A DNA stretch of 64,000 nucleotides from Planctomycetota bacterium (GTDB lineage Bacteria; Planctomycetota; UBA1135; UBA2386): positions 25,415-89,414 of the forward strand of contig JALORC010000010.1 in NCBI GenBank assembly GCA_025459175.1, in the 5' to 3' direction. The notes below the pieces were generated by a model. It had not been told where the DNA came from. It searched no databases and worked only from the letters and a program-made list of their open reading frames with translations. Every line of letters begins with the position of its first letter. Within the stretch, counting starts at the first letter, position 1. Below are positions 26,663-47,266 of this stretch, piece after piece. The position numbers and the translations under genes are program-made.

Positions 26663-27955
26663 CTAGCCACGCTTCTTCTGGCACGACGCCTCGGCCAGCT
26701 TCTTGGCGGGATCGAACCCCTTGCTGAACCGATCCACGTGGCAGCGACGGCAGTCCTCGACGGGCCTGGTGCCGATGCGCACACCCTGGTCGACGTGCTC
26801 CCTTCCCGGACCGTGACACGACTCGCACCCCACGTTGTGAAGATCCCTCCGAGTCAGGTCGGGTAAGCGCACTACACCATCCTGATCGAGCGAGACATCT
26901 CCAGTCACATGGCACACGACACAGTCTGCTCGCTCGTGCTTTCCGACCTTCTGAAGCGCCTCAAACGCAACCGCGTGCTTCGTCTCCACCCACGACTTAT
27001 AGGACGCTTCGTGACACTTCTTGCACGTCTCGCTGCCTACGAATCTCCGGCTCTCTTCGTCTGACACCCCGACCTCGCAAGTCGCGACGAGCTGACGAAG
27101 TGTGTCTGCCAGGGGCACTTCATCGGTCTTGTGAACGTCCTCAAAGCGAGCAGAGCACCACCCCTCTTGCTTGCTCATGTCGATGCTGAGGCGCAGGACC
27201 TGATTCCCTTCGCCTCGAGGTCGAAAAACATATCCCATTCCATATCGGGCCACACCAAGCTCCACAGAGTTGTGACAGTTTGGCTCCACCATCACGTAGC
27301 GATAATCGGTCGCCAGCAGTTGCCTCAAGAGCTTGGTTCGTCCCCCGGGATCACTGTGGACGAACATCACAGGTAGGCCCCCTGCATCAACCGCTTCGGT
27401 GGCGAAACGCAGGACGGCGCTCGCATCACACGACTTCCCGGGCGCAGGCACCTCCTCCACGATGAATGACGTGATCCACAGTCCGTTCGACACAGACCGA
27501 GCTCTCATGCTCTCGCCTTCAACGCTGCCGGAAACAAGCGGCAACCCCTCGGCGAGAAGCGTGGTCGCTTGCCTTGCCTCGGCGGGACCGAGACAGACAC
27601 AGTCAACCCTCATTGCCTTCCAAGCCTCGACCAGAACCCGCGTAGTCAAGGAGGCCAGGGGCCCACCCTCCACCGCGTTCCCGCCGTCGACGAGAACAAA
27701 AGCTTCGCGCCCGTCGCTATTCGCCCGCTCTCGCTGGACCAGTGCGACGACGCCATCGATCCCTCCGGCAACGTTGCCACCGCAGCCGCAGGGTTCGATA
27801 TTGCCGTTCAGGGATGGCAACGCCAGAATCGTTCCTCGCGGCGGCGATGTCGGCCGCGCTTGCCGATCGCATGCCAAGAACGACACACTCAGAGCGAGAG
27901 CTGTGATTGCGACGTGAGTCACTCGCTTCGAGTACGGGATTGACTTGGAAGCCAT
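26663..27955 (-). CDS. Exported UshA-like/tetrahaem cytochrome c protein
   Basis: A 430-residue exported protein. The N-terminus (MASKSIPYSKRVTHVAITALALSVSFLAC) is a signal peptide, perhaps lipoprotein-type. Residues about 40-280 resemble the UshA-like part often paired with multihaem cytochromes ('NGNIEPCGCGGNVAGG', 'FVLVDGGNAVEG'). The C-terminal ~130 residues hold four CxxCH haem sites: CKKCH, CVVCH, CESCH and CRRCH, in a cytochrome c554-like layout. Electron carriage in the periplasm is likely. It follows the HEAT-like gene by 31 bases in the locus that starts with the Cys-rich gene at 29984. GC is lower than in the propeller genes. Confidence 0.85.
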   Translation of the reverse strand: MASKSIPYSKRVTHVAITALALSVSFLACDRQARPTSPPRGTILALPSLNGNIEPCGCGGNVAGGIDGVVALVQRERANSDGREAFVLVDGGNAVEGGPLASLTTRVLVEAWKAMRVDCVCLGPAEARQATTLLAEGLPLVSGSVEGESMRARSVSNGLWITSFIVEEVPAPGKSCDASAVLRFATEAVDAGGLPVMFVHSDPGGRTKLLRQLLATDYRYVMVEPNCHNSVELGVARYGMGYVFRPRGEGNQVLRLSIDMSKQEGWCSARFEDVHKTDEVPLADTLRQLVATCEVGVSDEESRRFVGSETCKKCHEASYKSWVETKHAVAFEALQKVGKHERADCVVCHVTGDVSLDQDGVVRLPDLTRRDLHNVGCESCHGPGREHVDQGVRIGTRPVEDCRRCHVDRFSKGFDPAKKLAEASCQKKRG

Positions 27956-27986
27956 GCACGTGCACCTTCAGGTGAGTATGATCGGT

Positions 27987-29387
27987 CTATCGCTGTTTCC
28001 ACGAGGCCAGCGCCGTGGAAGCGGCCTTGGCAATCGACTTGTTGGCGTCCTTGGACAGTTCGCTCAGCAGCGAGGACAACTCGGGAACCCGCACGTATTG
28101 GAGCTGCTCCAGCACGTCACGACGCAGCAGGTCTTCATCTCGTGAGTTGCTCCATACTCGGAGGGCAGTCTCGAGATATGGCGCTGCGACGTAAGACTGT
28201 TCGGGATGACGCCGGAGGGATGTCATCAAGCCGCACAAGTAGTCCGATGTTCGCGTTACTTCCATGGGATCGGATGTCGGCATGCCTCGCGGCAGGTACT
28301 CGGTGAACCTCTGGGGGTCGAGGCAATAGCCAAGGTTAACCAGAGCAGTGGACTCAACCAGGGCACTCTTCGATCGTTTGACAAGACGAACGAGGGCCTC
28401 CCCCGCGCCGGGGGATTCGCCGCAGCCGCCCACAGCCACTGCACAACCCACCGCCGACCCCGCCGGCATATCGACCCCTTCGAGGGCAGCGATCGCAGCC
28501 GTGCGAAGCGACGCCTGCTTGTCGCGCTCTAACGAAGCCCCGTCTTGGAGGATCATCCGCGCGGCCGCGCCGATGTTCGTGGCGGCAGTCGCATCTCCCT
28601 CGTCCCCATCCAGAGTGAGGGCCGCGATGCCTAACAAACTGCCCACGGTGACGAATGGCGACTCCATGCTCTTGAGCAAGAATACACTCGCCAAGTCCCC
28701 GATCGCCAGGCTGTCCGCCTTGGCGATCGGGGTCATCAGCTGCACGACCAACTGATAATCAGCATAGGTTCCAGTTTGGAGGAGCCGCTCGATCTCGGAA
28801 ACCCGACGAGCCCGGTCCATGGCAACGAACTCCGCGATCCGGGCCTCCCACGCTCGCTGTTGCTCAGCGCTTCGCGGCCACAGGGCCATGCCCTCTTGCA
28901 CCTTGGCGTGGACCGGCGTCGCCGGCGGCATGTTCTTGTAGACGCCAGCAGAGGCAATACACAGATCGCTTGGTGATTCGTTCTCAGTGAAACATTGCAA
29001 CACCAGGGTGCTGTTTTTCAGTTGGTGGTGACCATCGCTATTGTCAACAGCAAGGCTTTCGAGAATGGCCAGCGAACAATCGTCGTGGGAGGCCACTCCG
29101 GAAGAACGGATGCCCGCCAGTCCAAGATAGCCCTGCATGCCTCCGTTCGGGCCAAACAGAAGTTCGGCGACCGATTTGGTCAGGATTTCTGGACGCTGTG
29201 GCGGCGAAGCTGTCGACACAGAGGTTCGGACCGCAGTCTCGGGGTTGGCCTTCGCCGATCGAACGGCTGGGGAAGATCCGCCTTCGCCTGCTACACGAGG
29301 GGGCGCGCTATCCGGGGAGTAGAGGAATGCGGCGAGACCCACGGCAAGAGTACCGGCGAGAATCCAGGGAAGTCTTCGAGATGCCAT
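27987..29387 (-). CDS. Exported helical-repeat protein of unknown function
   Basis: A 466-residue protein. The ATG giving MASRRLPWILAGTL is chosen; the track's longer form adds a poor N-terminus. One hydrophobic segment (WILAGTLAVGLAAFLY) acts as signal or anchor, then a low-complexity linker, then an all-helical domain. Its second half resembles HEAT-like repeats ('LTKSVAELLFG' ... 'LSSLLSELSKDANKSIAKAASTALASW'). No catalytic motif is visible. It lies between the Cys-rich gene (144 bases upstream, across a hairpin) and the multihaem cytochrome, suggesting a scaffold for that set. Confidence 0.65.
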   Translation of the reverse strand: MASRRLPWILAGTLAVGLAAFLYSPDSAPPRVAGEGGSSPAVRSAKANPETAVRTSVSTASPPQRPEILTKSVAELLFGPNGGMQGYLGLAGIRSSGVASHDDCSLAILESLAVDNSDGHHQLKNSTLVLQCFTENESPSDLCIASAGVYKNMPPATPVHAKVQEGMALWPRSAEQQRAWEARIAEFVAMDRARRVSEIERLLQTGTYADYQLVVQLMTPIAKADSLAIGDLASVFLLKSMESPFVTVGSLLGIAALTLDGDEGDATAATNIGAAARMILQDGASLERDKQASLRTAAIAALEGVDMPAGSAVGCAVAVGGCGESPGAGEALVRLVKRSKSALVESTALVNLGYCLDPQRFTEYLPRGMPTSDPMEVTRTSDYLCGLMTSLRRHPEQSYVAAPYLETALRVWSNSRDEDLLRRDVLEQLQYVRVPELSSLLSELSKDANKSIAKAASTALASWKQR

Positions 29388-29479
29388 GCGAGTCAGCCTC
29401 AAGGATCGGACAAACGAGCCACCTGACATCGAACACATGCGAGCATGCGAGGTCCGCTACCACGACACGATAACCGGCA

Positions 29480-29511
29480 CGTACCGCCGACGATACTCGG
29501 GCGGCGGTACG
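29480..29511 (-). terminator. Strong hairpin after Cys-rich gene (attenuator or processing site)
   Basis: CGTACCGCC at 29480-29488 pairs perfectly with GGCGGTACG at 29503-29511 around a 14-base loop. It lies about 20 bases after the stop of the small Cys-rich gene and about 90 before the next start. No T-tract, so partial termination or RNA stabilisation is as likely as full termination. Confidence 0.55.
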
Positions 29512-29531
29512 GGCCGAGAACGCGTCAGGGA

Positions 29532-29984
29532 CTAGTATTCCTCCGGCACGCCACATCCGTTGGGCCAGCAATCCACCGTCACATACACCTTCTTTTTTGC
29601 GCCAATGTAGCTCTTCGCCCCAGCGATGCACTCCGTCACACCATCTCTGTTGGTGTCAACACACGAGTAGGTGATCGTGTAGGCCCTCTGCTCTTGCAAG
29701 ACGCAGCACAACATCTCCGTCGAGTCCCTGCACGACGATGATGTCGGCGGGTTGTATGTCGTGACTTGGCCACAGGAATCGCCATTACCACACTGCCTAC
29801 TGGTCCCGGACGTGGAGAAGCCCCCGCCGACGTGCACCGCCTCCTTTTTCGGGCAATCGAATGCCTGAGGAGCAGCGACAGGAATGGCGCGACTCATCGA
29901 ATCGATCGCCAGCTCGGAGGGAGCGAGACGGTTTTGGGCAATCACAGAAAGCGAGCCAACTAAGATCGCGATTTTGAAGAGCAC
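29532..29984 (-). CDS. Small Cys-rich exported protein (locus 1)
   Basis: A 150-residue protein starting at GTG with AAGGAG seven bases ahead and a good promoter upstream. Signal peptide MLFKIAILVGSLSVIAQ; the mature part has ten cysteines ('CPKKEAVHVGGGFS', 'RQCGNGDSCG', 'MLCCVL', 'DCWPNGCGVPEEY') that could form five disulfides. 'SCVDTNRDGVTECIAG' resembles a calcium-binding loop of the DxNxDG type. No family recognised. It is the first gene of a three-gene locus with the HEAT-like and cytochrome genes, and has counterparts at 43741-44109 and 45113-45470. Confidence 0.75.
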   Translation of the reverse strand: MLFKIAILVGSLSVIAQNRLAPSELAIDSMSRAIPVAAPQAFDCPKKEAVHVGGGFSTSGTSRQCGNGDSCGQVTTYNPPTSSSCRDSTEMLCCVLQEQRAYTITYSCVDTNRDGVTECIAGAKSYIGAKKKVYVTVDCWPNGCGVPEEY

Positions 29985-30013
29985 AAGTAACTCCTTCGTG
30001 TTGAAGAAAGTAA

Positions 30014-30042
30014 CTTATAGCAAAATTACCCCCAGTCGTCAA
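30014..30042 (-). promoter_or_regulatory. Sigma-70-type promoter for small Cys-rich gene
   Basis: Read on the minus strand: TTGACG, then exactly 17 bases, then TATAAG, about 30 bases before the GTG start with AAGGAG between. It is the clearest consensus promoter in the window and sits in a locally AT-rich patch. Confidence 0.65.
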
Positions 30043-30263
30043 GCGCCGGCCCGGACACGGCAGCGGACCTGGTTCCGTTGGGCAAGAAGCGGCGTCTCGT
30101 CCAGACAACTCGGCCGGCGCACTTTCTGCCCGTGTTCCTGACTCCTCGGATCCACGCGAAACACCTCGTTCCTCGCCACGGCACAGCCCCCTAACCCGGC
30201 TGAACACGAACGGCGACCATCTCACCCGCCGAGATCCCCCAGATCGCTGCCATGGAGTCGGCA

Positions 30264-31358
30264 TCAGCTTGCCTCGTCGGCCCTAATTGCCAAACTACTC
30301 TCGACATCCAGCACAACGCCGCACTGCGAGAAGACCAAGGCGAATCCTCGCGTGCGTCCCCCGATGTGACCAACGATGGGGCTGGCCGCATCGCGAGGAA
30401 TGCAACACGACCAGGGGTCTTCACTCATCGCCGCTAGCCAGGCATGGTCAATGTCGCGCGGCAGAACGACCAACGCTTCCTCGATTCGGCCCGCGCGAAC
30501 GAGTCTTGCCAAGCAACGAACAGCCTCTTCTGGGCTCGTCGCATCGACGACGAGAACCCTGCCACGCGCCTTCTTGACTAGGTCTTTCAACCCGTCGACC
30601 TGAACTGAGGCAGGGCACTTCACCTTGCCGACTAGCACGTCGACGTTTCCTAGGATGCGAACGCACTCAGCCACCAGGTTGGCAGGCAACGGCGTGGCAC
30701 TCTCAACTCGGCGCGACCTGGGCCGAGGTGACCGACGTGCCGTAGCTGCTGCGGAAACCCAACGCAGTGCTCCTGCCTCCTTGGGGATCTCCTTCTTCTC
30801 GGACTTGGCGCGCAGATACCCCGTGAACACGTCCTCAGGTATGCGAGCGAGGGCCTTGTAGCGCCGCCTCCGATCCTTGTCGATCGCAGCCTGCGTCCCG
30901 CTGCCGAGCAAGTTCGCAGTGTGCGATCTTGATCGATCTCCGCCGTGGATAGAGCTTTGCAGCAAAGCGTGCCCGAGCCTGCGCTTCCCGCTGAGCTGGA
31001 AGGAGGCGATGCGGATGGCCTCTTCGATCAGGAACCCGAACCTCGCACTCGCCTCCTCCAGCACGGCCATCATCCGGTCAAAGTCTGCCAGCTGCTCGAT
31101 GGTCGTGGATCGCTCCAAAGCCATCTGAAGGTCGGCAGCGGACGGGATCACCAGGCCGGCAGGCCCGGCGCCTTGGCCCCCGGCAGCCATCTGTCCCGGA
31201 ACCAGCAGGCCGCCCAACTCCGCCTCCGACCCAGAAGCGCCACCATGCTGCGCGAGCGGCTGCCGCTGGACGGCGCGATCGACCAGCTTCTTGGCCTGTT
31301 CCGATACCGCGGGTGACGCCTGTGGCTCTTGATGCATGAGTTGACCCGGTTGCTGCAT
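30264..31358 (-). CDS. Phage-like protein, possible degenerate N6-adenine methyltransferase
   Basis: A 364-residue protein. The ATG giving MQQPGQLM is chosen; the 532-aa track ORF runs back through the divergent promoter. Residues about 75-185 match the helical domain found ahead of phage adenine methyltransferases ('SGKRRLGHALLQSSI', 'ALARIPEDVFTGYLRAKSEKKEIPKEAGALR'). The C-terminal ~150 residues have a Rossmann-like rhythm ('GRVLVVDATSPEEA', 'EEALVVLPRDIDHAWLAAM') reminiscent of the Dam-like PF05869 family, but no DPPY motif is present, so enzymatic activity is doubtful. It is divergent from the ParB-methyltransferase pseudogene, and a decayed partial copy lies at 44.3-44.6 kb. Confidence 0.55.
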   Translation of the reverse strand: MQQPGQLMHQEPQASPAVSEQAKKLVDRAVQRQPLAQHGGASGSEAELGGLLVPGQMAAGGQGAGPAGLVIPSAADLQMALERSTTIEQLADFDRMMAVLEEASARFGFLIEEAIRIASFQLSGKRRLGHALLQSSIHGGDRSRSHTANLLGSGTQAAIDKDRRRRYKALARIPEDVFTGYLRAKSEKKEIPKEAGALRWVSAAATARRSPRPRSRRVESATPLPANLVAECVRILGNVDVLVGKVKCPASVQVDGLKDLVKKARGRVLVVDATSPEEAVRCLARLVRAGRIEEALVVLPRDIDHAWLAAMSEDPWSCCIPRDAASPIVGHIGGRTRGFALVFSQCGVVLDVESSLAIRADEAS

Positions 31359-31584
31359 GCTCAAACAACCGCTTCGCGGGATCCTTAGCTGCGATACATA
31401 TAGGTTACACTCTGAGCCTGTTCTGGTTGTAGACCGACTCCTCCGCCGGAAATCGGTCAGGCAAACAACCATGTAAGAGTGCGGAAATCGTGACGGCGAG
31501 CCCCGGATGCGATAGTCTCCGCCACGTCGAGCCACCCGTCCAAGCACCACCTCCAAGCGGCTCCCAACGTCCCGAGGTGCTGAC
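31359..31584. promoter_or_regulatory. Divergent promoter region between phage-like genes
   Basis: 226 bases separate two divergent starts. The AT-rich patch GATACATATAGGTTACACT can supply -10 elements on either strand. GAGGTG lies five bases before the TTG at 31585. No operator symmetry was noticed. Confidence 0.3.
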
Positions 31585-32613
31585 TTGCCCACGAACACGT
31601 CCCCGCCGGTCGAGACCGTCTCGATCGCCCGGCTCTTCTGCTCGCCCACCGACCCCCGCAACAACGACGCGGCCGTCCCCCGCGTCGCTGCTAACCTTCG
31701 CCGCTTCGGGTGGCAACAGCCGATCGTCGCGCGCCGAACCGGCGAGGTGATCGCCGGCAACACCCGGCTGAAGGCCGCCCAGGAGCTCGGCATGACCGAG
31801 GTGCCCGTGTGGTGGCTCGACGGCTCCGACCTCGACGCCGTCGCCGACAACCGCACGCACACCTTCTCAGAGTTCGACGAGCCCGCCCTGGCGAAGCTCC
31901 TGGAGCAGCTGCGCGCCGAGGACTCGCTCGACGGCGTGGGCTACGACACTGACGACATCGACGCGCTGGTGCAGCAGCTCCGCGACCAGGAGCAGGTCGA
32001 CAGGGACCTGGACGATGAAGGCGCCGACGACCCGCCGGCGTTCGCCGTGGCCAAGTTCGGCGACCTGTGGCACCTCGGTGAGCACCGACTGCTCTGCGGC
32101 GACAACACCAACCTGAATGACGTCCTCCGCGTGATGGACGGCGAGAAGGCCGCCCTACTCACCACCGACCCGCCCTACCTCGTCGACTACACGGGTGAGC
32201 GGCCGAACGACAGCGGCATGGAATGGACCGACCGCATCTGCGGGATCGACATCAAGAACGCGGACGGGTTCTTCGAGGCCGTGTTCACGCACGTGCTTGA
32301 GGTGCTCGGGCCGAAGGGTGCTCTGTACTGCTGGCACGCCCACAAGCGGTACGGCGACATCCAGCGGATCTGGCGCGAACTGGGCATCCTGGACCACCAG
32401 CAGATCATCTGGGTCAAGCCGACGCCGGTGCTCGGACGCGCCTACTTTCACTTCCGCTATGAGCCGTGCATCTTCGGCTGGCGGCAGGGCGACAAGCCGG
32501 ATCACGACGGCGACCAAGACGACAACTCGGTGGGGAGTGCGACTGGGACGGGAAAGCGCGGGTAGTTGGCAACGAGCACCCTACCGACAAGCCCGTCGAA
32601 CTCATCGTCCGCC
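31585..32613 (+). pseudogene. ParB-like/DNA adenine methyltransferase, frameshifted and truncated
   Basis: The TTG-start ORF encodes a ParB-like N-terminal domain ('QQPIVARRTGEVIAGNTRLKAA', about 40-75) joined to a beta-class N6-adenine methyltransferase with TDPPY at about 193-197. Near 32530 the frame is broken: 'DDNSV' continues as 'WECDWDGKARVVGNEHPTDKPVELI' only in the next frame, consistent with one missing base in GTGGGGAGTG. In this family 'HPTxKPVEL' precedes the FxGxG cofactor loop, but here the sequence switches at 32614 to the IS91-type end repeat, so the loop is gone. The gene is therefore inactive as a methyltransferase. Confidence 0.8.
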
Positions 32614-32782
32614 CGCGCAAGCCCGTTTGGTGCCCGTTCCCGCCGGCTGTGCGCCCGACGGACACACCGCTCCTCCGCCACGACCAGACCTCGGTCACGG
32701 CACCGGCCCCACCATCACTCCGCGACACACTCGGAGTCACTGCCGAATTCCTCCACCGCCGGCGGCGCCCGACACCCCGCGC
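32614..32782 (-). repeat. IS91-type element end segment, solo copy
   Basis: From CGCGCAAGCCCGTTTGGTGCC to GGCGCCCGACACCCCGC the sequence is about 95% the same as 36474-36640, the region just beyond the stop of transposase copy C. No transposase codons remain. Its left edge coincides with the truncation point of the methyltransferase. Confidence 0.8.
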
Positions 32783-32865
32783 GAACGATGGCGTCGCACC
32801 ACGCCACGAACTGCGGGTGCAACCGAGGCGCCGCTGCACCGCGCGCATCACCGAAGGCGCCGACG

Positions 32866-33162
32866 TCAGCTGCCGGCGCGGCGGCGAAAGCTGCGCCGCC
32901 AGACGATCCACAGCACCACCGAACTCGACAGCAGGCCGATCACCAGACCGGTGGCCTGCAGGTGCAACCCGTCGGGTGCCGCCACCAGATACGGCCAGCG
33001 CCCGGCGACCGACCAGGTGGAGACCTCGTGCAGCTGGTTGGCCGCGTTGGGGTCATGCGTGCCGACCACCTGCCAGTGGCCCCAGATCGAGGCCATCGCG
33101 AGCAAGCCGGCGAGCCACCAGGCGGCGCGGGCAGACACGGAATCGACGGGCGCGGAGCTCAT
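32866..33162 (-). CDS. Small membrane protein
   Basis: A 98-residue protein from the ATG giving MSSAPVDS. Two predicted membrane helices (AAWWLAGLLAMASIWGHW and LVIGLLSSSVVLWIVW) frame a loop of about 40 residues, ending in a basic tail (RRSFRRRAGS). It lies 79 bases after the 439-aa exported-protein gene on the same strand and is probably co-transcribed with it. No family recognised. The element end at 32614-32782 follows it directly. Confidence 0.6.
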   Translation of the reverse strand: MSSAPVDSVSARAAWWLAGLLAMASIWGHWQVVGTHDPNAANQLHEVSTWSVAGRWPYLVAAPDGLHLQATGLVIGLLSSSVVLWIVWRRSFRRRAGS

Positions 33163-33241
33163 CGCCGAGGACGATCGCCGAGCCCGGAACTGGCCGCAAG
33201 ACGGTGGCGCCACCGTCGCACGACTGTCGCGCCGACGTCGG

Positions 33242-34561
33242 TCACCACCGATACGGCGTCGGGAAGCTGATGTTGATCTGCCGCATCGAGGCGTGGATCC
33301 GGCTGGTCTCTGCCCGCAGCTTCAGCACCTCCGACATCGAGTTGCGCTGCCGTTCCGCCGCCGCGCGCCGCTCGGCTTCGTCGACGGCCGATTGCGCGGC
33401 GATCGCCCGGCCGAGTTCGACGATCTGCGGCATGGCGCGCCAGTCGGCGACCATCGCCTCGCGTTCGCCGGTCGAGAGTTCGGGCCAACGCAGCCGCAGC
33501 GCAGCCCAGCCGAGCGGCATGCTGGCGACGAAGTCGCGCTGGTCGCGCGGCAAGCGCGGCCACTGCCCGGCGACGCCGGTGATCAGCTGTTCGCGCAGTT
33601 CCGGGGCCAACGGCGCCGAGGCGCCCGCGACCTGCTGGCCGGCGAAGTGCAGGAACTCGGCGAACGCCTCGACGGCCTGGCGCTTGAGCGGCGGATCTCC
33701 GGCGACGAGTACGCGGTCGACCTCGGCGTGGATCGCGAGCATCATCGCCGCGCCGCGACTCTCGGCCTGCTCCTGCCGCCAGGCCTCGAGCGCCTGCTCG
33801 AGCACCTGCACACGCGCCAATTCCCGGGCCTCGGGCTGCAGCGCGGCGAGTTCCTGCCGCGCCTGCAGCAGTTCGACCGTGCCGTCGATCTCCTCGCGGT
33901 CGCGGGTCCGCCACGCGGTGCGCAGCTCGGACTCGACGGTGGCCGCCTGCGCGTCGGTGAACGGACTCTGCAGCAGCCACTCGAGGAACGCCACCGCTTC
34001 ATCGACCATGTAGCGCGTCAGCGGCGGGCGACCGCGCTCGAGCCGTTCGAGCGTGGTCGGCACCGCGTTGCCCAGCAGGGCGCCGACGGCGGGCACGTAG
34101 CGCTCGTAGAGCTGCTGGTGGTCGAACTCGAACCGCAGCGCCGTGACCCGGCCGCCGCCGGCGAGCAGGCTCAGATAGATCCCCGGACGCAGGTCGCTGC
34201 CGGCTTCGCCCTGCAGCAGGAACAGCTCGCCGACATACGTGGCGCGCGTGCCCGTCACCGTCGGCTCCGCGCGTTCGCCCTGCCGTTCGTAGCCGGGCCT
34301 GCCGGTGTGCTCGGCGAGTCGTGCATCGAGGTGGTCCTCGATCGAGCCGGTCAACGGCACCGAGTGCTCGATGACGAGGCGCGCGCCGGCCACACCGGGC
34401 GTCAGCACGACCTCGTTGCCGACGGTCCTGCCCGACCAGCCGTCGGGTACCGGGAACCGCAGCAGGTCGTGCCGCATCGGCGGCGCCGGCTGGTCTTGGC
34501 ACGGGGCGGGGGAGGCCGCGGCGAGCGCGGCGGCGACCAGGAGCAGGGGGGCGATGCGCAT
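33242..34561 (-). CDS. Exported helical protein of unknown function
   Basis: A 439-residue exported protein with signal peptide MRIAPLLLVAAALAAASPAPCQ. Residues about 30-150 form a beta-rich part ('LLRFPVPDGWSGRTVGNEVVLTPG', 'VTALRFEFDHQQLYERYVPAV') that resembles the PsbP/Mog1-like fold used for detecting small envelope ligands. The rest is strongly helical with Ala/Glu/Arg-rich coiled segments. No catalytic motif. The start is supported by the compact signal peptide. Downstream is the small two-helix membrane gene. Confidence 0.65.
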   Translation of the reverse strand: MRIAPLLLVAAALAAASPAPCQDQPAPPMRHDLLRFPVPDGWSGRTVGNEVVLTPGVAGARLVIEHSVPLTGSIEDHLDARLAEHTGRPGYERQGERAEPTVTGTRATYVGELFLLQGEAGSDLRPGIYLSLLAGGGRVTALRFEFDHQQLYERYVPAVGALLGNAVPTTLERLERGRPPLTRYMVDEAVAFLEWLLQSPFTDAQAATVESELRTAWRTRDREEIDGTVELLQARQELAALQPEARELARVQVLEQALEAWRQEQAESRGAAMMLAIHAEVDRVLVAGDPPLKRQAVEAFAEFLHFAGQQVAGASAPLAPELREQLITGVAGQWPRLPRDQRDFVASMPLGWAALRLRWPELSTGEREAMVADWRAMPQIVELGRAIAAQSAVDEAERRAAAERQRNSMSEVLKLRAETSRIHASMRQINISFPTPYRW

Positions 34562-34673
34562 CGGAGCAGGGATCGGTTGCCGGGAGCCGGCGCTGCAGCC
34601 GGCCGTGGACCGTGGCTACAGCGGCATCGCCGCCGGAAGAACACCGCCTGGGGTGTCGAGGCGGAGCCCTCGC

Positions 34674-35657: not shown

Positions 35658-35691
35658 GGCGTTCGTCCATCCGGTAGCGGAAGCAGTGGGT

Positions 35692-35726
35692 CAGGCTGCG
35701 GCCCCGGACCATCCGGAACTCACGCC
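35692..35726 (-). repeat. Dispersed IS91-type end repeat, short copy
   Basis: GGCTGCGGCCCCGGACCATCCGGAACTCACGCC matches the terminal 35 bases of the end repeat at 36401-36435 with a few changes. It lies upstream of the gene that ends at 34674. Confidence 0.5.
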
Positions 35727-36383: not shown

Positions 36384-36389
36384 GGCTCA

Positions 36390-38205: not shown

Positions 38206-38247
38206 AGTCTCCCACCTGCAGAGCCACCACCGACAAGGAGATCGCAC

Positions 38248-39548: not shown

Positions 39549-39756
39549 GAGCGCCTCCGGGCGGCCGCAGACGCGGTCGCGACGCGCGGACCGGCCGTCT
39601 TCGGGGCGGGCGCATGCGATCCGGCGAGGCCGAGTCCTGGCCCGGGCCCTCTCCGGGTCCCGGCCCCGACACCCCTCCCGACCCCGACCTGTGGCCCGGG
39701 GGTGCGCATGCGCTCGAACTTCGGCTCCGGTGTTCCGATGCCGCCCGGGGGTAGGA

Positions 39757-39853
39757 GTCCCGGACCACCCGGAACCCACTCGCGCCAGCTTGCCGCCCGA
39801 TCTCCACCCCGTCCAGCCGGTCCCGGCTGCCCATTTCGCCCCCTCCACCGCCG
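39757..39853 (-). repeat. Dispersed IS91-type end repeat, full-length solo copy
   Basis: GTCCCGGACCACCCGGAACCC, CGCGCCAGCTTGCCGCCCGATC, CCGTCCAGCCGGTCCCGG and GCCCCCTCCACCG occur in that order. It is in direct orientation with the end at 36390 and inverted relative to 16067-16149. It lies in the otherwise gene-free 39549-40005 stretch, where nothing else was found. Confidence 0.8.
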
Positions 39854-40005
39854 GTTCCGCGGTCACGAGGCAATCCGCTACCCCGCCGCGACCCACGAGT
39901 GGTCACCGCACCGGCTCACCCATCCCTCGGCGGGTCACTCGGCCGGGTCACTCGGCCTGGCCATCGTCGCGACCCGGCGGCGCACGGCTAGCCCAGCCGC
40001 GAGCT

Positions 40006-41121
40006 TCATCGACGGAGCTGTCGCACCGTGACCGCAGCGTGCGTCATCGGACAGTAGGCTTGCGCCAGGGAGTCGGGTGTCAGATGGTCGCGAAGATACC
40101 GATAGAGCCACTCGCCGGCGCGCCGCAAGGTATCCGTCGGCACGCGCATGTCCTCGGGAACCATCAAAAGACATTCCCCGAGGTGGCCAGTAACAAGGGC
40201 CAGCGTATCGGCGGTGACTCGTTCTTCGGCGAGGCCGGAATACCAGTTGAGACCCCAGGCGCCATCTTCGCGCTGATTGGCGATGATGCGTGTCAGGCGG
40301 TCGGCGACGCCACGACGAACCCTCGCAGCCACGTCCGGATCGAGCACCGCCACCTGTGTGTCGACACTCGACAAGAGAACCAATGCGTTGAGGGCATGGA
40401 TGCCCGCACACGCCCCAAACTCAGGACTCCGACTCAGCAGCTTCTCGGCCAACTGGTCGAACGAGAACGACTCCCGGTACTTGTTCTGCCAGGAGCGCAC
40501 TGGCGGCAGCGAAAGGATCAGCGAGATCGCCGTCCATTCGAGTTCGGGTTGTTCGATCGAGAAGTTCGCGATCGAATCGACGACGACATCACGCAGTTCG
40601 ACCTGGGCATCGTCGAGTTCGAGCCGGCTCGTCAGCGGCAAGCCCAACTCGAGCAGGCCGGCGAGGACTTGGTCGATGTGCGACTCGTCGGCTGCGGTCG
40701 CGGCCTGCGGCAGCATCGAAGGTGGCCGAAACCGAGCCCCGAAACGAGTCTTCACGGCAATACGCGAATGGAACAACTGCTTGCCGCATTTGAATTGGAG
40801 CAGGGCGGCAAGGACGTCCTCGGATTGATCGATGAGCTCGTCGGCAAACCTCGCGTTCAGTCCGTGTAGCCGCAGGCAGTGCAGGCAGATCGAAGGCGTC
40901 GAGAACAGGGCCCCATTCCTGCGCACACGCGGCCCGAACGTAGCGACGATGCGCGCCCAGACTTCCGCATCGACGTCGACGACCGGCAGCCGCTGCTGCT
41001 TCACACGCAGAGGCTGCTCACGGATCGTCGCGACGCTCTCCGCATGCGAGCCGCGCACCTGCTCCCCGCATGCAGGAAGCAGGAGAACCAGCGCCAACGC
41101 CAGCGGCAGGAAGAGTGGCAT
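40006..41121 (-). CDS. Lipoprotein with alpha/alpha-toroid-like C-terminal half
   Basis: A 371-residue predicted lipoprotein: MPLFLPLALALVLLLPAC has a clean lipobox. The C-terminal half carries helical repeats with 'ANQREDGAWGLNW', the 'QxDGxWG' motif of terpene-cyclase/prenyltransferase and thioester-protein toroids, and regular Ala/Leu helices on either side. No cyclase acid motif is seen, so a binding rather than catalytic role is more likely. It is the last of four minus-strand genes, 14 bases after 41135-41827. The ATG at 41121 is chosen by its signal sequence. Confidence 0.65.
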   Translation of the reverse strand: MPLFLPLALALVLLLPACGEQVRGSHAESVATIREQPLRVKQQRLPVVDVDAEVWARIVATFGPRVRRNGALFSTPSICLHCLRLHGLNARFADELIDQSEDVLAALLQFKCGKQLFHSRIAVKTRFGARFRPPSMLPQAATAADESHIDQVLAGLLELGLPLTSRLELDDAQVELRDVVVDSIANFSIEQPELEWTAISLILSLPPVRSWQNKYRESFSFDQLAEKLLSRSPEFGACAGIHALNALVLLSSVDTQVAVLDPDVAARVRRGVADRLTRIIANQREDGAWGLNWYSGLAEERVTADTLALVTGHLGECLLMVPEDMRVPTDTLRRAGEWLYRYLRDHLTPDSLAQAYCPMTHAAVTVRQLRR

Positions 41122-41134
41122 GAAGAAGGGACGC

Positions 41135-41827
41135 TCAGCGCTTGGCAAGCTTGCGGAACGCGCCGCGGGCGCGCTGCCATTGGCCGATCGCCTTCCCCAA
41201 TTCCGGATACTCATCGGTGCTGACGAAGTAGTCGGCCACAGCGGAGCCAACGCGGAGGGTCCCGGTCTGCCCCATCCAAACCGTATCAGGGGTAGCCTCG
41301 ACCTTGACTGGGGGCGGCTGATTGTAGACGTAGCGCTGCTTGAGAATGAGATTGCGCAGAGTCCGCATCGAGAACTCGCTGTCGGCGAGTTCGTGTGCTT
41401 TTCGCTCCGCCTCCGCGCGCTCGGCATCGGGCAGTTTCGCTACCAGCGCGAGGTTCTCGGCGAGCGCCTCTTCATAGCATTCGCGCCGAAGTGTGCTGGC
41501 CTCTTCATTGAGGGCCTGGATCAGGACGGCCAAATCGACCGCGCCGATGTCCACCCGGGGCACCGGCGCGGCGCTAGCCGTCTCGGTCTTGTCGACCGGT
41601 TCACCTCCGGTGGCGGCACCCACCGGATCACCCACGGCAATCGGCGGCTTCGCATCTTCGCGATCGGGCTCTGCTCCTTGCGCCTTCTCCCCGGCGACGG
41701 GACCTTGCGCCTGGACTCCATGCTCGGCCACCCACTCCGCAGGCGCGACCGAACGGTCAGATCCATGGGTGACGAACCAGACGATGGCGCACACCATGGC
41801 CACCGCGACGAGCATCAGTCGGATCAT
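41135..41827 (-). CDS. Membrane-anchored protein of unknown function
   Basis: A 230-residue protein. One N-terminal helix (MIRLMLVAVAMVCAIVWFVTHG) anchors it; a Pro/Ala/Glu-rich linker of about 70 residues follows, then a helical domain ('VLIQALNEEASTLRRECYEEALAENLALVAKLPDAERAEAERKAHELADS') and a short basic end. No family recognised. It overlaps the upstream gene by four bases (ATGA at 41824-41827), so it is co-translated with it. Confidence 0.7.
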   Translation of the reverse strand: MIRLMLVAVAMVCAIVWFVTHGSDRSVAPAEWVAEHGVQAQGPVAGEKAQGAEPDREDAKPPIAVGDPVGAATGGEPVDKTETASAAPVPRVDIGAVDLAVLIQALNEEASTLRRECYEEALAENLALVAKLPDAERAEAERKAHELADSEFSMRTLRNLILKQRYVYNQPPPVKVEATPDTVWMGQTGTLRVGSAVADYFVSTDEYPELGKAIGQWQRARGAFRKLAKR

Positions 41828-43020
41828 CCCAGCTTCTCCTCGTAGAGATCTGTCGAAGCGCGCCTTCCGACCATCGCCGACGAGCCCCCGGGGCGCACCT
41901 CACCTGTCCGACGCGCGCGTCGTCGATGTCCATCGAGCAACAGCACGAACGCGGCCAGCAGGGCGCACACAGAAGCCACCAAACGCCACCACGCTGGGTC
42001 CTGCGCCCGAGCGACACGACGCTCGAAAGCAGACTGCAACATCCCAGCTGACTCTTCGAGCATGTCGTGTCCACCGGGCACGACCTGCTCCGACGTGCCG
42101 GTCTTGCGATCGAGGCGTAACCAACCTGGCCCTTGCTCGGGCAGCGGGACGTCACGCGCAACCTTTTGCACATCGATGTTGACCACCTCGACCGTGATGA
42201 CCGCCGGGTGCGCACCTCCGTAAGCATTGCCATCGCCGTCTATGAGCGGCGTGACATCGAAGACCGCGGGCAGCTTGCCGACCCCTGCGACATCCCGCAA
42301 CTCGCGCACCGACAGAATCATGGCCGGCCTCTCTGCTTGGTACCACGTCCGCCGAAGCAGCGGGAAGTCCGGTGGTGCCCCGAGCACGATCTCGTCGATG
42401 CCTTGTCGCGATACCGAGACTCGGGCCGCGTCGATGGGGTCGTCCGAACGCATCGGGGCCACCTTGTACCGCGCGTCGCGAAGCACGTGCCGGATGCTGA
42501 CACTGCTACCGAAGAACGCGGGAGGCTCGAGGTTCGGCTCGTTGTCGGGAAGAGTCCAGACTCCACTGCCGCGAAACCAGAACAGGACCGCGAGGCGTTC
42601 GAAGTTGGGGAGGCCTGGGTTGTCGATGGACTCGATCATTCGCTTGGCGACCCAATTGACGTGGACCCGCTGCGCATCCATCCACGTCTGTGTCCGGCCG
42701 TAGAATGCCCGCCACGGCACTCCCGCGGACGAATGGCCGCTGTCCAGGCAGATCGCGCCGCGCGCATCGATGGCGCAGTCGCAGTGCACGAGCTCACCGG
42801 GATCCGGGCCCGGGAAACGCGAGGCCACGAACAGGTGGGGCATTGCGCGACACTTGCTGATCCACCCGTCAAGAACAACCGAGCGCAGATCCTCTGGTGC
42901 GATGGCGGCGACCGCATGCGTCGATGCCTGCTGACTGAGGAGGGTCCGGCTCGGCCCCAGCAACGTCAACCCGACGGCAACCACCGTCCACAGTCGCAAG
43001 GTCGAAAGCCGATCTGTCAT
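41824..43020 (-). CDS. Exported protein with C-terminal membrane helix
   Basis: A 398-residue protein. The ATG giving MTDRLSTLRLWTVVAVGLTLLG is chosen because it overlaps the upstream stop by four bases. After a signal peptide comes an exported domain ('HLFVASRFPGPDPGELVHCDCAIDARGAICLDSGHSS', then 'RMIESIDNPGLPNFERLAVLFWFRGSGVW') with several Cys residues, then one C-terminal membrane helix ('WWRLVASVCALLAAFVLLLD') and a basic cytoplasmic tail. The layout suggests a large domain held outside. No family recognised; it may work with the C39-like gene. Confidence 0.7.
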   Translation of the reverse strand: MTDRLSTLRLWTVVAVGLTLLGPSRTLLSQQASTHAVAAIAPEDLRSVVLDGWISKCRAMPHLFVASRFPGPDPGELVHCDCAIDARGAICLDSGHSSAGVPWRAFYGRTQTWMDAQRVHVNWVAKRMIESIDNPGLPNFERLAVLFWFRGSGVWTLPDNEPNLEPPAFFGSSVSIRHVLRDARYKVAPMRSDDPIDAARVSVSRQGIDEIVLGAPPDFPLLRRTWYQAERPAMILSVRELRDVAGVGKLPAVFDVTPLIDGDGNAYGGAHPAVITVEVVNIDVQKVARDVPLPEQGPGWLRLDRKTGTSEQVVPGGHDMLEESAGMLQSAFERRVARAQDPAWWRLVASVCALLAAFVLLLDGHRRRARRTGEVRPGGSSAMVGRRASTDLYEEKLG

Positions 43021-43619
43021 GTCCGACCTCCGAGGCGCCAACGCAACAGCAACAACACGATCGCCCCACCGAGCGAGCCCCAGTGCACAAGCCACGCAAC
43101 GGTCAGGCGTGACGGCGGCGAGGCAATGAGAACGTGTCCGGACCAAAGCCGCTGAAACGCCTGCCTGCCGATGCTCTGCCTCAGCACCGTGGCCGCATCG
43201 AAGAGCGTCACACTATTAGGGTCCATCCTGACAACGATAGCATAGCCGCCGGCGCGGCCGTCGTCGCCGACGGCATCTTCGAGGTGCACGATGACTGGAA
43301 GCTGGGTTTTTGTCAGAGCATCCATCGAACCGAAACCGGTATGACTCGCCGCACCGAGCGCCGTGGCCGCGTTCTCCAGCCTCGCCAGGGTCACCGGGTA
43401 CCCTTGTTCCGCGACCGCCCGCACGACGTCGCCGTACAGGATGTCGTGGCCGCATCCGCGCAGCTGGAGGAACAAGGCGTTGGCCGCAGCCGATTCGGTG
43501 TTGCGCCAGATCGCGGGCACACCAGGGCCTTCATCCTGGCCAGCGGCCACCGCGGCGAGGGAGAACAGGCACAAACCTGCCATCGCCGCACGCGAGACGC
43601 TGCAGTAGGGCCGTTGCAT
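43017..43619 (-). CDS. C39 peptidase-like membrane protein, probably inactive
   Basis: A 200-residue protein with a signal segment (MAGLCLFSLAAVAAGQ region) and one C-terminal helix ('WLVHWGSLGGAIVLLLLRW'). The middle has the shape of a C39 peptidase: 'LRGCGHDILYGDVVRAVAEQG' (Cys near the expected nucleophile), 'ALTKTQLPVIVHLED', 'VTLFDAATVLRQSIGRQAFQRLWSGHVLI'. In active C39 enzymes the catalytic His heads the 'HFVVL' strand; here the strand reads GGYAIVV, so the His seems lost. It overlaps the next gene by ATGA, and follows the Cys-rich gene at 43741-44109. C39 domains normally cut Gly-Gly leaders of exported peptides. Confidence 0.65.
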   Translation of the reverse strand: MQRPYCSVSRAAMAGLCLFSLAAVAAGQDEGPGVPAIWRNTESAAANALFLQLRGCGHDILYGDVVRAVAEQGYPVTLARLENAATALGAASHTGFGSMDALTKTQLPVIVHLEDAVGDDGRAGGYAIVVRMDPNSVTLFDAATVLRQSIGRQAFQRLWSGHVLIASPPSRLTVAWLVHWGSLGGAIVLLLLRWRLGGRT

Positions 43620-43704
43620 CGGTCAGTAGTTTCTTCGACTGGAGAGCAACGATAGGCGTGAACGACTTCGGCAAACCCGGCGAACACGCCGTAGTCGACG
43701 GGAA

Positions 43705-43724
43705 CGAGGCCGGGAAGGGCCTCG
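43705..43724 (-). terminator. Hairpin between Cys-rich gene and C39-like gene
   Basis: CGAGGCC pairs with GGCCTCG around a six-base loop, 17 bases after the stop of the Cys-rich gene. Like the hairpins at 29480 and 45496 it separates a small Cys-rich gene from its larger downstream neighbours; no T-tract. Confidence 0.5.
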
Positions 43725-43740
43725 CGGCTTCCCCCCTCGG

Positions 43741-44109
43741 TCAGCCTCCGTCAACAGGCGGCACGTAGTCGCACGGGAACGGGACCCGCATCACACTGCC
43801 GCAGCCGACGACGGCGCTACCGGTCGACGTGCAGTACTTGATCCCGCCAAATGTGTTGAACCTGTTATCGCCGTCGGCCCGGGGGACCCAGCACTTCGTG
43901 GCAACGCAGCGCAAAGGCCAAGGACCGTACTCGTTGGGATCGCCCCCGGCACACCCGAGGAACTTCCAAGTGGCACAAGAATCCTCGCCCCCCAAGGACA
44001 TCGTCAGGACACCGTCCGCGTCTTCGAACAAGCGGGTCTCCGGGGAAGGAACTGCAGCGAGGGCCAAAGCGCTTACAGCAAGCGCCAAAATCATTCTTCC
44101 AGTGCGCAT
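43741..44109 (-). CDS. Small Cys-rich exported protein (locus 2)
   Basis: A 122-residue protein. The ATG with AAGGAGA eight bases upstream is chosen; the track's longer start is not. A hydrophobic segment (MRTGRMILALAVSALALAAV) is followed by 'DGVLTMSLGGEDSCATWKFLGC', where SLGG resembles a double-glycine leader site directly before the Cys-rich part. Seven cysteines ('LRCVATKCWVP', 'KYCTSTG', 'VVGCGSV', 'FPCDYVPP'). No family recognised. It heads a five-gene run with the C39-like protein next, which fits a processed exported peptide, though the C39 His appears missing. Confidence 0.7.
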   Translation of the reverse strand: MRTGRMILALAVSALALAAVPSPETRLFEDADGVLTMSLGGEDSCATWKFLGCAGGDPNEYGPWPLRCVATKCWVPRADGDNRFNTFGGIKYCTSTGSAVVGCGSVMRVPFPCDYVPPVDGG

Positions 44110-44294
44110 CTTGCTCTCCTTGGTTGTTGGAGTTTCCTTGGAGCCGGGTGACATACCCAGCGTCCCTTCGTGACTCTGTGCAATACCATCGCACAGCAGA
44201 TTTCCATGGAACCACAAACCATCGTATCCTTCAACCCCAAACTCCTGATCGGCCATCGGCGACGTAATCCAGCCGGCGCATCCACGCGCCGTGG

Positions 44295-44588
44295 GCTGTG
44301 ACCCGCTGCCGAAACCCAACGCAAGGCCCCGGCCTCCTTGGAATCTCCTTCTTCTCCGACTTGGCGCTCAGATACCCCCGGAACGAGTCCTCAGGAATGC
44401 GTGCGATAGCCTTGCAGCGCCGCCCCCTGCCCTTGTCGTTTGCAGCCAGCGCGCCGCCACCAAGCAAGTTCGCAGCCTGCGATCTTGCTCGATCTCCGTC
44501 TCGGACAGAGCTTTGCAGCAAATCTGCATCCAGCTTGCGCGTCCCGCTGAACTGGCAGGATGCAATGCGGATGGCCTCCTCGAGGCGA
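44295..44588 (-). pseudogene. Decayed partial copy of the phage-like gene at 30264-31358
   Basis: The minus frame reads 'EEAIRIASCQFSGTRKLDADLLQSSVRDGDRARSQAANLL' and 'AIARIPEDSFRGYLSAKSEKKEIP', aligning with residues of the 30.3-31.4 kb protein, then shifts frame at 'RRPGPCVGF' against 'KEAGALRWVS'. No start, no C-terminal part. It belongs to the otherwise gene-free 44110-45112 stretch, together with the end repeat at 44753. Confidence 0.8.
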
Positions 44589-44752
44589 CCGCCATCGAGG
44601 CCGATTCGCATCGAGGTGCGCGGCGAAGCCCAAGCCCGTGTCGGCAAGGGCATCGGCACCAACTACGTTTCGCCAGGGCCACTGATCCTTCTGGGCCTTT
44701 CGGCGCGCCAGGATGGCTAGTTCCGGAACCGCGGCGGGCTCGGAACCGCTGC

Positions 44753-44840
44753 GCGACCGGCTGGACGGCGGGATGCGCAGCGGGCAGGCTGGCGGGGGTG
44801 GGTTCCGGGTGGCCTGGGACAGCAGCGTGATCTTACTGCA
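44753..44840 (+). repeat. Dispersed IS91-type end repeat, diverged copy
   Basis: GCGACCGGCTGGACGG, GGGCAGGCTGGCGGGGGTG and GGTTCCGGGTGGCCTGGGAC are shared with the other ends; even the terminal part AGCAGCGTGATCTTACTG parallels TGCAGCTTGAACTTCCTA. Oriented like 16067-16149. Confidence 0.6.
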
Positions 44841-45112
44841 CCCGATCTTCGCCGGTTCGATAGATGGCACGTAGCGTGCGGCGACGACCTCTGACACTCA
44901 GGCGCGCCTTTCTCTCGCCGGAAACCGGAAACCCAACCTCGAACAGCGACCGCGTGAGCGGGAGTGGTTTACCCATCGGGTGCGGTAGCGGCCGAAGTCC
45001 TGCGTTTTTGAGGTGACCCGTCGCGTTCGTGGCGAAAGTATAGCATGTGTTCTGTGGGAGGTAAGCACCTTCGCCTGTCTCCCGCTAGAGCTCAACAACT
45101 TGGAGCCAACTC

Positions 45113-45470
45113 ATGAAGATGCTATTCGCGGCGATCCCCTGCGTTGTTCTTGGTATTTGCGGCGCAGGAGTGTTATACCGATTCGGCCCACAACTCGGGG
45201 GCGGCTGTGACTTTGAAGATCGGCGACTCCCGCGACAAGGCCAGGGCGGAAGCGGAAGCGCGCCAGCAAGTCAACGATGCGCTAGCGATTCTCTCCAAGG
45301 TGGAGTGTGCCATTTGCCCTGGTGGTGCCCAGTGCCCCAGGTCGGCCAAAGCAACAGACGGAACGGTGACCGTTCACTGCCAGCAAGTTGGCTCGACGCA
45401 AGACAGCAGAAGGTGGGTTTGCGCCGCGTCGCATCAAGGCGCCTACGTCGTCAACTGCAAGAAGTGCTGA
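45113..45470 (+). pseudogene. Small Cys-rich exported protein (locus 3), apparently frameshifted
   Basis: An ATG with TGGAG seven bases upstream begins a good signal peptide (MKMLFAAIPCVVLGICGAGV) in one frame, but the Cys-rich body ('VTLKIGDSRDKARAEAEARQQ', 'CAICPGGAQCPRS', 'AYVVNCKKC', eight cysteines) lies in another frame, open from a TTG at 45144 to 45470. A single indel around 45143-45190 would join them into a protein of about 118 residues like the genes at 29532 and 43741. Either a real frameshift, a sequencing error, or translation from the TTG. It heads the locus with 45540-47266. Confidence 0.6.
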
Positions 45471-45495
45471 GGAGCAGATCTGAGCATAGAACAAG

Positions 45496-45520
45496 GCGCT
45501 GCTGCGCTCGGCAGCAGCGC
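45496..45520 (+). terminator. Perfect 10-bp hairpin after Cys-rich gene
   Basis: GCGCTGCTGC - GCTCG - GCAGCAGCGC, a perfect ten-base stem with a five-base loop 25 bases after the 45470 stop and 20 before the next ATG. No T-tract follows, so attenuation or RNA stabilisation is possible. Confidence 0.65.
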
Positions 45521-45539
45521 TACCTAACACCATAAGAAC

Positions 45540-46688
45540 ATGCGATTTCCCAAGAGCGCAGTCTATCTTTTATTAGGCGCTTCCATTGGAGTGGTGTTTC
45601 TTGCACTGGCGCACGGTGGCTTCGCATCAGCGCCGTCTTTGGCCACGACCACGAACGTCGACGTCAAGGTGGCGCCACACATTGGAGAGCCGGCAGCAGC
45701 TGAGGGGCCTGCGGTGGCCGCATCGAGGATGACGGCCACCTCCACTCATGGCGGCCCGCCAGACTTCTCGGCAAGGATTGTCGTCGTGGGGCTCCCAGTG
45801 AACGACGGTCCCGACGCAGGTGTGATTGTCCGGAGGCTAGGTGATGGTCACCTCACACATCAAAGCCTTGACCTGGCGAGGTCATGGGTGGGTGCCTTGC
45901 CGGCCCTCACTCATGCGATCGAGGGCGTGACATCGAAATCTGGAGCCTTCGATGTTGTATCGTGTGACCCGCCGAACCTGTCAGTCGACAACGCAAGTGT
46001 CACCGTGGTGGTCAGGGCTTCTGAAGGATGGTTGCTTCATGCGATAGATGGATCTACAGGAACCCGCTTGAGTGGACTGGTGTCGTGCCAAGATGGTTCC
46101 GACAACCATGTCGGTAGCGATGGGACCGTGTGGATGCCGCGCGAGCTGCCGGGTCAAGCCAAGCACTACATTGCAAGCGTCGCAGGCTTCACGCCCCGAC
46201 GCCTTGCGCATCGAGCCGAAGAGGGAGATGCGTTCGTGTCCTTCTGGCGCTGCGGTTCAATACGAGTTCGGTTGCGGGCCGGGCACTCCGTTTCTGTGTG
46301 GAGCTCGGATGATGGGCGCATCGTGCATCTTGTAGACAGCGACCCACGGCGGGACCGAACCGTCGACGTCGAAGAGCTCAAGCCAGGACAATACATTTTG
46401 CATGTGGCGACAGAAAACGGCGTCTGCTGTGGAGAAGTCACTGTGCATCCGGAGTCATCGATCGTAATCAATGCTGAAGATCTATGCGGGTCTCTACCTC
46501 GTCAAGCAACGTTGCATTTGCTGTGCGATGGAGACTTGACGAAGATGGACAGCGTAAACATGGATCTGACGGTAGCGAGTATACCCTATAGTGTGGCGAT
46601 CCAAAACCAAGGCGGTGGATCGAAGTTGCATCAAAGAGTATTGCGCAGCTTGGCTTCTCGGGAGGGCTGCAGCATCGATAGGCATTGA
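45540..46688 (+). CDS. Exported protein with beta-sandwich repeats (locus 3)
   Basis: A 382-residue protein with signal peptide MRFPKSAVYLLLGASIGVVFLALAHGG. The body contains beta-rich segments like carboxypeptidase-regulatory or prealbumin-like sandwiches ('ARIVVVGLPVNDGPDAGVIVRR', 'VDVEELKPGQYILHVATENGVCCGEVTV'). No catalytic motif recognised. It ends with TGATG, so the next ORF starts on the stop; the two could also be one gene split by an old frameshift. GC is clearly lower than in the propeller and amidohydrolase genes. Confidence 0.65.
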   Translation: MRFPKSAVYLLLGASIGVVFLALAHGGFASAPSLATTTNVDVKVAPHIGEPAAAEGPAVAASRMTATSTHGGPPDFSARIVVVGLPVNDGPDAGVIVRRLGDGHLTHQSLDLARSWVGALPALTHAIEGVTSKSGAFDVVSCDPPNLSVDNASVTVVVRASEGWLLHAIDGSTGTRLSGLVSCQDGSDNHVGSDGTVWMPRELPGQAKHYIASVAGFTPRRLAHRAEEGDAFVSFWRCGSIRVRLRAGHSVSVWSSDDGRIVHLVDSDPRRDRTVDVEELKPGQYILHVATENGVCCGEVTVHPESSIVINAEDLCGSLPRQATLHLLCDGDLTKMDSVNMDLTVASIPYSVAIQNQGGGSKLHQRVLRSLASREGCSIDRH

Positions 46689-47266
46689 TGGATTTGTTTC
46701 CGGCGACATACAGAGTGGCCATTCCCGAAATCGGGGTTGAGACAGAGTTTATCGTTCCCGCGACCGGTCCGGTCGATGCCCCCATTGATTGCTATGATAT
46801 GGCCAGAATCAAGGTGGCAGTGCAGGCTGGTATGCAGCCACCGAATCTGTCGATCGAACATGTGTTTTGGTCGTATGCCGACAGCCAATCGAGTGGGTAC
46901 GCGCGGATCAGCACTGGCTCCGTGGAGTGCCATGTGTCGGTGCCGAAGAAACCACTGAAGATGATGGTGGTTTTCTCCGACAATTCGGTGTCCGGTGCCG
47001 TGCATTGGAGGCCAGGACAGGATACGGATTTGCACTTCAGCAAGGCGGAAGCCGTGAGGGTCGCCGTGCGCATGATGAGGTCGGGAAAGCCTGCGTACTT
47101 GGACGAGTATTGGGATGCTGACATTCAAGCTCTAGACCATGATGGTGAACGCCTTGGTTACGGAGTAAACAGCAGTGATCCGTCGCAAGCCGTGTTCACG
47201 GTGTCGCGGCCTGGCCTCCAGTCGCCATGGCATGGGTGTGGGGCAAGTCGGTCCTTGGCGAGCTGA
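46688..47266 (+). CDS. Beta-rich protein coupled to upstream exported protein
   Basis: About 192 residues from the ATG that overlaps the upstream TGA (TGATG). It opens directly into beta-rich sequence ('LFPATYRVAIPEIGVETEFIVPATGPVDAPIDCYDMARIKV') with no signal peptide, which suggests it is the displaced C-terminal part of 45540-46688. An in-frame TAG lies just upstream of its start, so simple read-through cannot join them. No family recognised. It ends 170 bases before the next IS91-type end. Confidence 0.5.
   Translation: MDLFPATYRVAIPEIGVETEFIVPATGPVDAPIDCYDMARIKVAVQAGMQPPNLSIEHVFWSYADSQSSGYARISTGSVECHVSVPKKPLKMMVVFSDNSVSGAVHWRPGQDTDLHFSKAEAVRVAVRMMRSGKPAYLDEYWDADIQALDHDGERLGYGVNSSDPSQAVFTVSRPGLQSPWHGCGASRSLAS

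Follow-up and report, generated by a model that had tools for sequence, protein, structure and literature searches.

The locus at positions 40006–44109 (locus 2) of the 64,000-nucleotide stretch analysed here (the window, part of a 7.5-Mb draft genome) belongs, as judged from its sequence relationships, to a gene cluster that is widespread in Planctomycetota. The cluster comprises a Cys-rich precursor with a predicted Sec signal, a stand-alone C39 protein that has a predicted Sec signal and is anchored in the membrane by its C-terminus, and two unnamed families of exported proteins. We estimate at roughly 60% the probability that locus 2 is a derived member of this cluster and that the cluster makes a secreted disulfide-rich protein, which would be handled first by Sec and then by C39. 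The broader reading is slightly less secure, if still favored: that Planctomycetota possess a two-step pathway that lies outside the known C39-ABC scheme, combines a Sec signal with a double-glycine leader, relies on a dedicated anchored C39, serves a fast-evolving repertoire of disulfide-rich proteins, and has retained only a pseudo-enzyme in some lineages.

All genes of locus 2 lie on the minus strand. The first, S2 (43741–44109), is preceded by AAGGAG and encodes a small exported Cys-rich protein of 122 residues with seven Cys. It carries GG at residues 40–41, directly ahead of the first Cys, and its leader is otherwise off-profile for a double-glycine leader (Ser at −4, Val at −8, Asp at −12). 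No credible relative of S2 was found among 60 related genomes, and a search of viral contigs gave no match; weak matches in G042, G052, and G017 were rejected, as on reading these loci carry unrelated genes. The second gene, S2b (43017–43619), encodes an exported C39-like domain followed by a C-terminal transmembrane segment. Its profile match places it in the C39 family (Pfam PF03412, E = 6.7e-7, above the curated cut-off), and alignments put Ala44 at the position of the catalytic Cys and Tyr126 at that of the His, so the Cys, His, and Asp of an active peptidase are not all present and S2b is predicted to be a catalytically dead pseudo-peptidase. With 200 residues, a single membrane segment at the C-terminus, and no fused ABC transporter, it is not a C39-ABC exporter. 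S2c (41824–43020) is exported, has a C-terminal membrane segment and a weak LolA-like hint, and belongs to an unnamed family that recurs in C39 clusters. S2d (41135–41827) consists of an N-terminal membrane anchor and a low-complexity linker. S2e (40006–41121), which also recurs in C39 clusters, is exported, with a possible lipobox (LLPAC) and conserved residues in the pattern H, C-x-G-x-H, GH, and CP-x-[TS]-H. It is all-helical in a model of low confidence (pLDDT 40), which was too poor for a fold to be assigned, and we do not claim it as an alpha/alpha-toroid enzyme, the hint to squalene-hopene cyclase being at chance level (E = 0.41). PDB sequence searches with the S2e and S2c profiles gave no significant match.

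A weak match to S2c in another genus (genome G024) led to a locus with the whole gene set, apart from S2d, for which homology was not established. The S2e proteins of the two genomes match with E = 1e-56, the C39-like proteins share 35% identity, S2c matches with E = 2.6e-9, and the small Cys-rich protein of G024 matches S2 in a two-sequence comparison (E = 6e-5), with the common motif KYCT..G....GC..V. Unlike in the window, S2e lies upstream in G024. The C39-like proteins of both genomes are without the catalytic Cys and His. A profile built from these two proteins identified loci in the complete genomes G220 and G424 in which the catalytic residues are intact and the neighbors include small Cys-rich, S2c-like, and S2e-like proteins. 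The relationship to C39 is further indicated by matches to the peptidase domains of known structure from ComA and PCAT (E = 4e-15) and by a match to the Pfam C39 family. Matches in G324, G158, G292, and G306 were set aside; they stand in other contexts, mostly as longer fusions, and do not have the S2 layout.

A six-sequence C39 profile retrieved many C39 genes from 170 genomes of the order of G220, some fused to ABC transporters and some stand-alone. We examined 20 stand-alone loci, most C39 loci coming from this one order and none of the 20 being among the sequences used to build the profile. Small genes were accepted as exported ORFs with at least six Cys, with no demand for glycines and with signal peptides called by a simple hydrophobicity rule. 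Of the 20 loci, 17 have such an ORF on the same strand as C39 and three have one on the opposite strand, one of which may go with a second, divergent C39; at three of the 20 no small gene was detected. Within 1.5 kb, a small Cys-rich ORF accompanies 7/17 stand-alone C39 genes vs 0/13 ABC-fused ones (Fisher P = 0.010). BLAST clustering indicated that the S2c and S2e families recur at C39 loci, and at other C39 loci DUF1573 proteins take their place. S2e is not specific to the cluster, because genomes in the order of G220 have two to five S2e-like paralogues each, mostly at sites apart from C39 genes (L146–L171); these proteins form a large, unnamed family of Planctomycetota in which His and Cys residues are conserved. 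Several further arrangements were observed. DUF1573 proteins adjoin a Cys-rich gene at L130, L133, L134, and L138, which represent a second type of C39 locus, and C39 and DUF1573 are fused at L091. In G220, a single exported chain (L085:5890–7078, minus strand) contains tandem C39 domains, one active-looking and one degenerate. A C39 ORF at L141:1233–2897 (minus strand) has a C-terminal part that resembles a prepilin N-terminus (GFTIVELLVTLSIVSLLLALIAPAV) and may be a C39-pseudopilin fusion, and L125 has one stand-alone C39 gene per strand, each strand also having a small Cys-rich ORF.

The small proteins linked to C39 are distinguished by what precedes their Cys core. By inspection, GG, GA, or GS stands ahead of it in 20 of 25 C39-linked proteins vs 0 of 15 members of the S3 family from locus 3 (P = 8e-7). 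A double-glycine leader is defined by GG or GA, hydrophobic residues at −4, −7, and −12, and Glu at −8. Among 23 aligned leaders, 18 have Val or Leu at −12, 15 have Glu or Asp at −8, 16 have Leu, Ile, or Val at −4, and 19 have Gly or Ala at −1, so that in most relatives the aligned sequences correspond to a classic double-glycine leader. At two loci (in G024 and at L140), a C39 without catalytic residues is accompanied by a small protein without GG. GG and catalysis do not always go together, since S2 of the window keeps GG although its C39 is dead. This leader profile would also fit if the small proteins were cytoplasmic precursors of RiPPs or bacteriocins, exported by a C39-ABC transporter encoded at another site of the genome, with an N-terminal stretch that is not a Sec signal. 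ABC-fused C39 proteins are indeed present in the same order, and one of the small proteins weakly matches the CCRG-2 family of RiPPs (E = 5.5e-4, below the curated cut-off). However, the small Cys-rich genes lie beside most stand-alone exported C39 genes and beside none of the 13 ABC-type ones, the C39 partner itself carries a signal sequence and a C-terminal membrane segment, and to our knowledge classic double-glycine leaders have no signal peptide ahead of them. We therefore consider cytoplasmic precursors unlikely. A precursor with two leaders in tandem is most simply explained if Sec exports it first and C39 then cleaves it outside the cytoplasm.

The preliminary description of this DNA had placed locus 2 among three loci with one plan, the others being at 26663–29984 (locus 1) and 45113–47266 (locus 3). 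This layout holds for the most part. At all three loci, a small Cys-rich gene behind a good ribosome-binding site comes first, although the frame of S3 at locus 3 had been misassigned, and it is followed by a hairpin without a T-tract. The larger partners described as exported mostly begin with a hydrophobic stretch, but the two at locus 3 are pieces of one frameshifted protein. The lower-GC context is borne out as well, with 60.7, 64.6, and 57.9% GC in loci 1, 2, and 3, respectively, vs 69.0% in the window. When the order of small gene, hairpin, and partner was sought in related genomes, it recurred for loci 2 and 3 but not for locus 1. The loci have in common a layout and not, as had been proposed, one system, because the small proteins are unrelated and the partners differ: locus 2 has a C39-like protein and two unnamed exported families, locus 3 a carboxypeptidase-regulatory-like protein, and locus 1 a cytochrome c554 protein. 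A single family for the small proteins was ruled out, as neither S1 nor S2 matches the S3 family profile, and S2 and S3 belong to no common family. The three loci are three different things. A tRNA-linked island was also considered and rejected, as no tRNA is present.

The hairpins had been described as strong, and this holds at loci 1 and 3. The hairpin after S1 (29475–29516, minus strand) has a folding energy of −28 to −29.8 kcal/mol (z = −4.6), and that after S3 (45496–45520, plus strand) has a perfect 10-bp core stem and −23.7 kcal/mol (z = −5.0). The hairpin after S2 (43696–43739, minus strand; −24 to −25.5 kcal/mol) is weak when taken alone, because its z is −1.6 and 15 of 200 shuffles were as good. 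Searches of Rfam gave no match at the gathering score. Among 41 small Cys-rich genes from the relatives and the window, 39% have z < −2 downstream, vs 7% of 28 controls, mostly C39 genes of the same operons (Mann–Whitney P = 1.7e-4), a comparison that is not perfectly fair because the control regions often extend into coding sequence. Perfect 12-bp stems occur in the hairpins of G424 and G024. The hairpins fit a 3′-end stabilizer or a partial terminator that favors the first gene.

Locus 1 only resembles the plan and is unsupported as a unit. Its genes lie on the minus strand. S1 (29532–29984), preceded by AAGGAG, starts with GTG and encodes a small exported Cys-rich protein of 150 residues with 10 Cys, with no homologue in 150 relatives. 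S1b (27987–29438), an exported or membrane protein, is likewise an orphan; 153 other genomes of the order contained no homologue. S1c (26663–27955) has an NIEPCGC motif and a cytochrome c554 domain and is of a type common in the order; the upstream flanks examined in its relatives contained no credible small Cys-rich gene. A protein with a ParB N-terminal domain (31585–32565) adjoins the low-GC patch of locus 1, and elsewhere in the window (50332–57027) four adjacent genes with amidohydrolase-like N-termini possibly arose by tandem expansion.

Locus 3, on the plus strand, is a new conserved two-gene module, separate from locus 2, that consists of a Cys-rich protein and an anchored beta-domain partner. 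S3 (45113–45470), preceded by GGAG, is split by a frameshift near 45150 into a signal-peptide frame that starts at 45113 and a mature frame (45144–45470) with eight Cys that ends in NCKKC. Homologues were found for the mature frame only and not for the frame starting at 45113. The partner is present as two pieces, S3b (45540–46688), with a weak match to residues 139–285 of the partner in G066 (E = 0.09), and S3c (46685–47266), which matches residues 444–649 of this intact 665-residue protein (E = 0.001) and a partner in G135 (E = 6.6e-4). Relative to intact homologues, both genes thus appear frameshifted, which points to a decaying locus or to errors in the assembly of the draft genome. For the mature frame of S3, a homologue was identified in G066 (E = 2e-8). 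A profile made from this pair retrieved further members in the order, and a refined version added others in the phylum, one of them outside the order. The family has six invariant Cys (CG...CxxC...C...CxxC), a pattern that the mature frame of S3 fits and S1 and S2 do not. Matches to the S3 profile in G223 and on contig 31 of G062 were rejected, as they overlap a long unrelated ORF. The two-gene family was found in about nine genomes, and in G066, G017, G135 (two copies), G050, G076, G197, and G062 a gene for a large N-terminally anchored protein lies downstream of the S3-family gene in the same orientation. Seven of eight partners are recognized by a profile of the others (leave-one-out, E < 1e-3), and one has a weak carboxypeptidase-regulatory-like match. 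An AlphaFold model of the S3 family, based on two sequences, has a core with a pLDDT of about 90, with two strands, a helix, and two long strands; fold searches with it against PDB and BFVD gave no match, and a PDB sequence search with the family profile gave no significant one. Exported Cys-rich proteins and hairpins could be so abundant in planctomycete genomes that all three look-alike loci within 20 kb are a coincidence, and the orphan S1, the lack of relationship among the small proteins, and solo S3-family genes without a partner in five genomes (G101, G074, G102, G105, and G050) would agree with this. It is nevertheless improbable, since loci 2 and 3 are kept as units in other genera and families, which already contradicts coincidence there, and hairpins are enriched behind the small genes.

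For locus 2, we propose the following pathway. In the presumed ancestral form, represented for example by genomes G220, G431, and G616, the small Cys-rich precursor would leave the cytoplasm by Sec with the second, double-glycine leader still attached, and the Sec-exported C39, anchored in the membrane by its C-terminus, would cut this leader after GG or GA outside the cytoplasm. Proteins of the S2e and S2c families may act on the product enzymatically or serve it as chaperone or carrier. The hairpin probably limits read-through or shields the first message at its 3′ end, which would place the precursor in excess over its partners. In the window, where the Cys and His are lost and the leader has decayed, the C39-like domain is for that reason probably a non-catalytic docking or chaperone domain, like that of HlyB. 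Alternatively, and with no antimicrobial role, the clusters could make structural parts of the cell surface or envelope, such as a disulfide-linked coat or fiber, with C39 acting in fiber assembly as FapD does. Planctomycete envelopes are reportedly cystine-rich, and many of the partners are anchored exported proteins. FapD itself works in the export of amyloid fibers (PMC5557850). The small proteins, however, are highly diverse in sequence and scattered in occurrence, which suits a competition factor or a signal equally well or better, and neither fiber-like repeats nor an outer-membrane pore gene was noticed beside them, so that we regard a structural role as doubtful, if less so than cytoplasmic precursors.

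If the two-step pathway is correct, double-glycine processing, which is known from cytoplasmic C39-ABC transporters, would be shifted to a site outside the cytoplasmic membrane, and a large uncharacterized class of secreted Cys-rich proteins would be named in Planctomycetota, for which little is known about what is secreted. Because exact cleavage sites are predicted, the pathway can be tested directly in cultured species with complete genomes and active C39 genes. The series from an active peptidase with a GG leader to a dead peptidase with a decayed leader would also provide a case of a protease becoming a pseudo-enzyme.

The statement that no described system has such a layout holds for the literature searched, although locus 2 is built from known parts, namely a C39 peptidase and, in relatives, also double-glycine leaders. 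The open-licence literature searched, on planctomycete C39, DUF1573, and small Cys-rich proteins, contained no description of the C39 cluster; an earlier account in a subscription journal is possible. NVEALA-type peptides of Bacteroidota are small, exported, and Cys-rich and are encoded beside exported partners. In these features they are similar to the clusters described here, whose small Cys-rich proteins gave no family match. A precedent in the literature is FapD, a periplasmic, Sec-exported C39 peptidase of functional amyloid export in Pseudomonas; this export depends on the active-site Cys of FapD, the substrate of which was unclear (PMC5557850). As judged from their hydrophobic N-terminus and single ORF, the C39 proteins of the relatives resemble FapD as Sec-exported stand-alone peptidases that adjoin small exported partners. 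However, the substrates of Fap are amyloid subunits that have no canonical GG leader and leave through the FapF pore, whereas the partners in the cluster are Cys-rich and have canonical GG leaders, C39 is anchored C-terminally, and the window copy is predicted to be dead; neither FapB/FapC amyloid repeats nor a FapF pore was noticed when neighboring ORFs in the C39 clusters were read. S2b resembles the CLD of HlyB-type RTX transporters in having a degenerate C39 fold without the catalytic Cys, but the CLD is cytoplasmic and ABC-fused, whereas S2b is stand-alone and probably exported. With ComA/PCAT1/LctT-type C39-ABC transporters, the clusters have in common the C39 domain and, in relatives, the same leader profile. 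In contrast to these transporters, the cluster C39 has no ABC part, peptidase and precursor both have predicted signal peptides, and processing would take place at the outer side of the cytoplasmic membrane.
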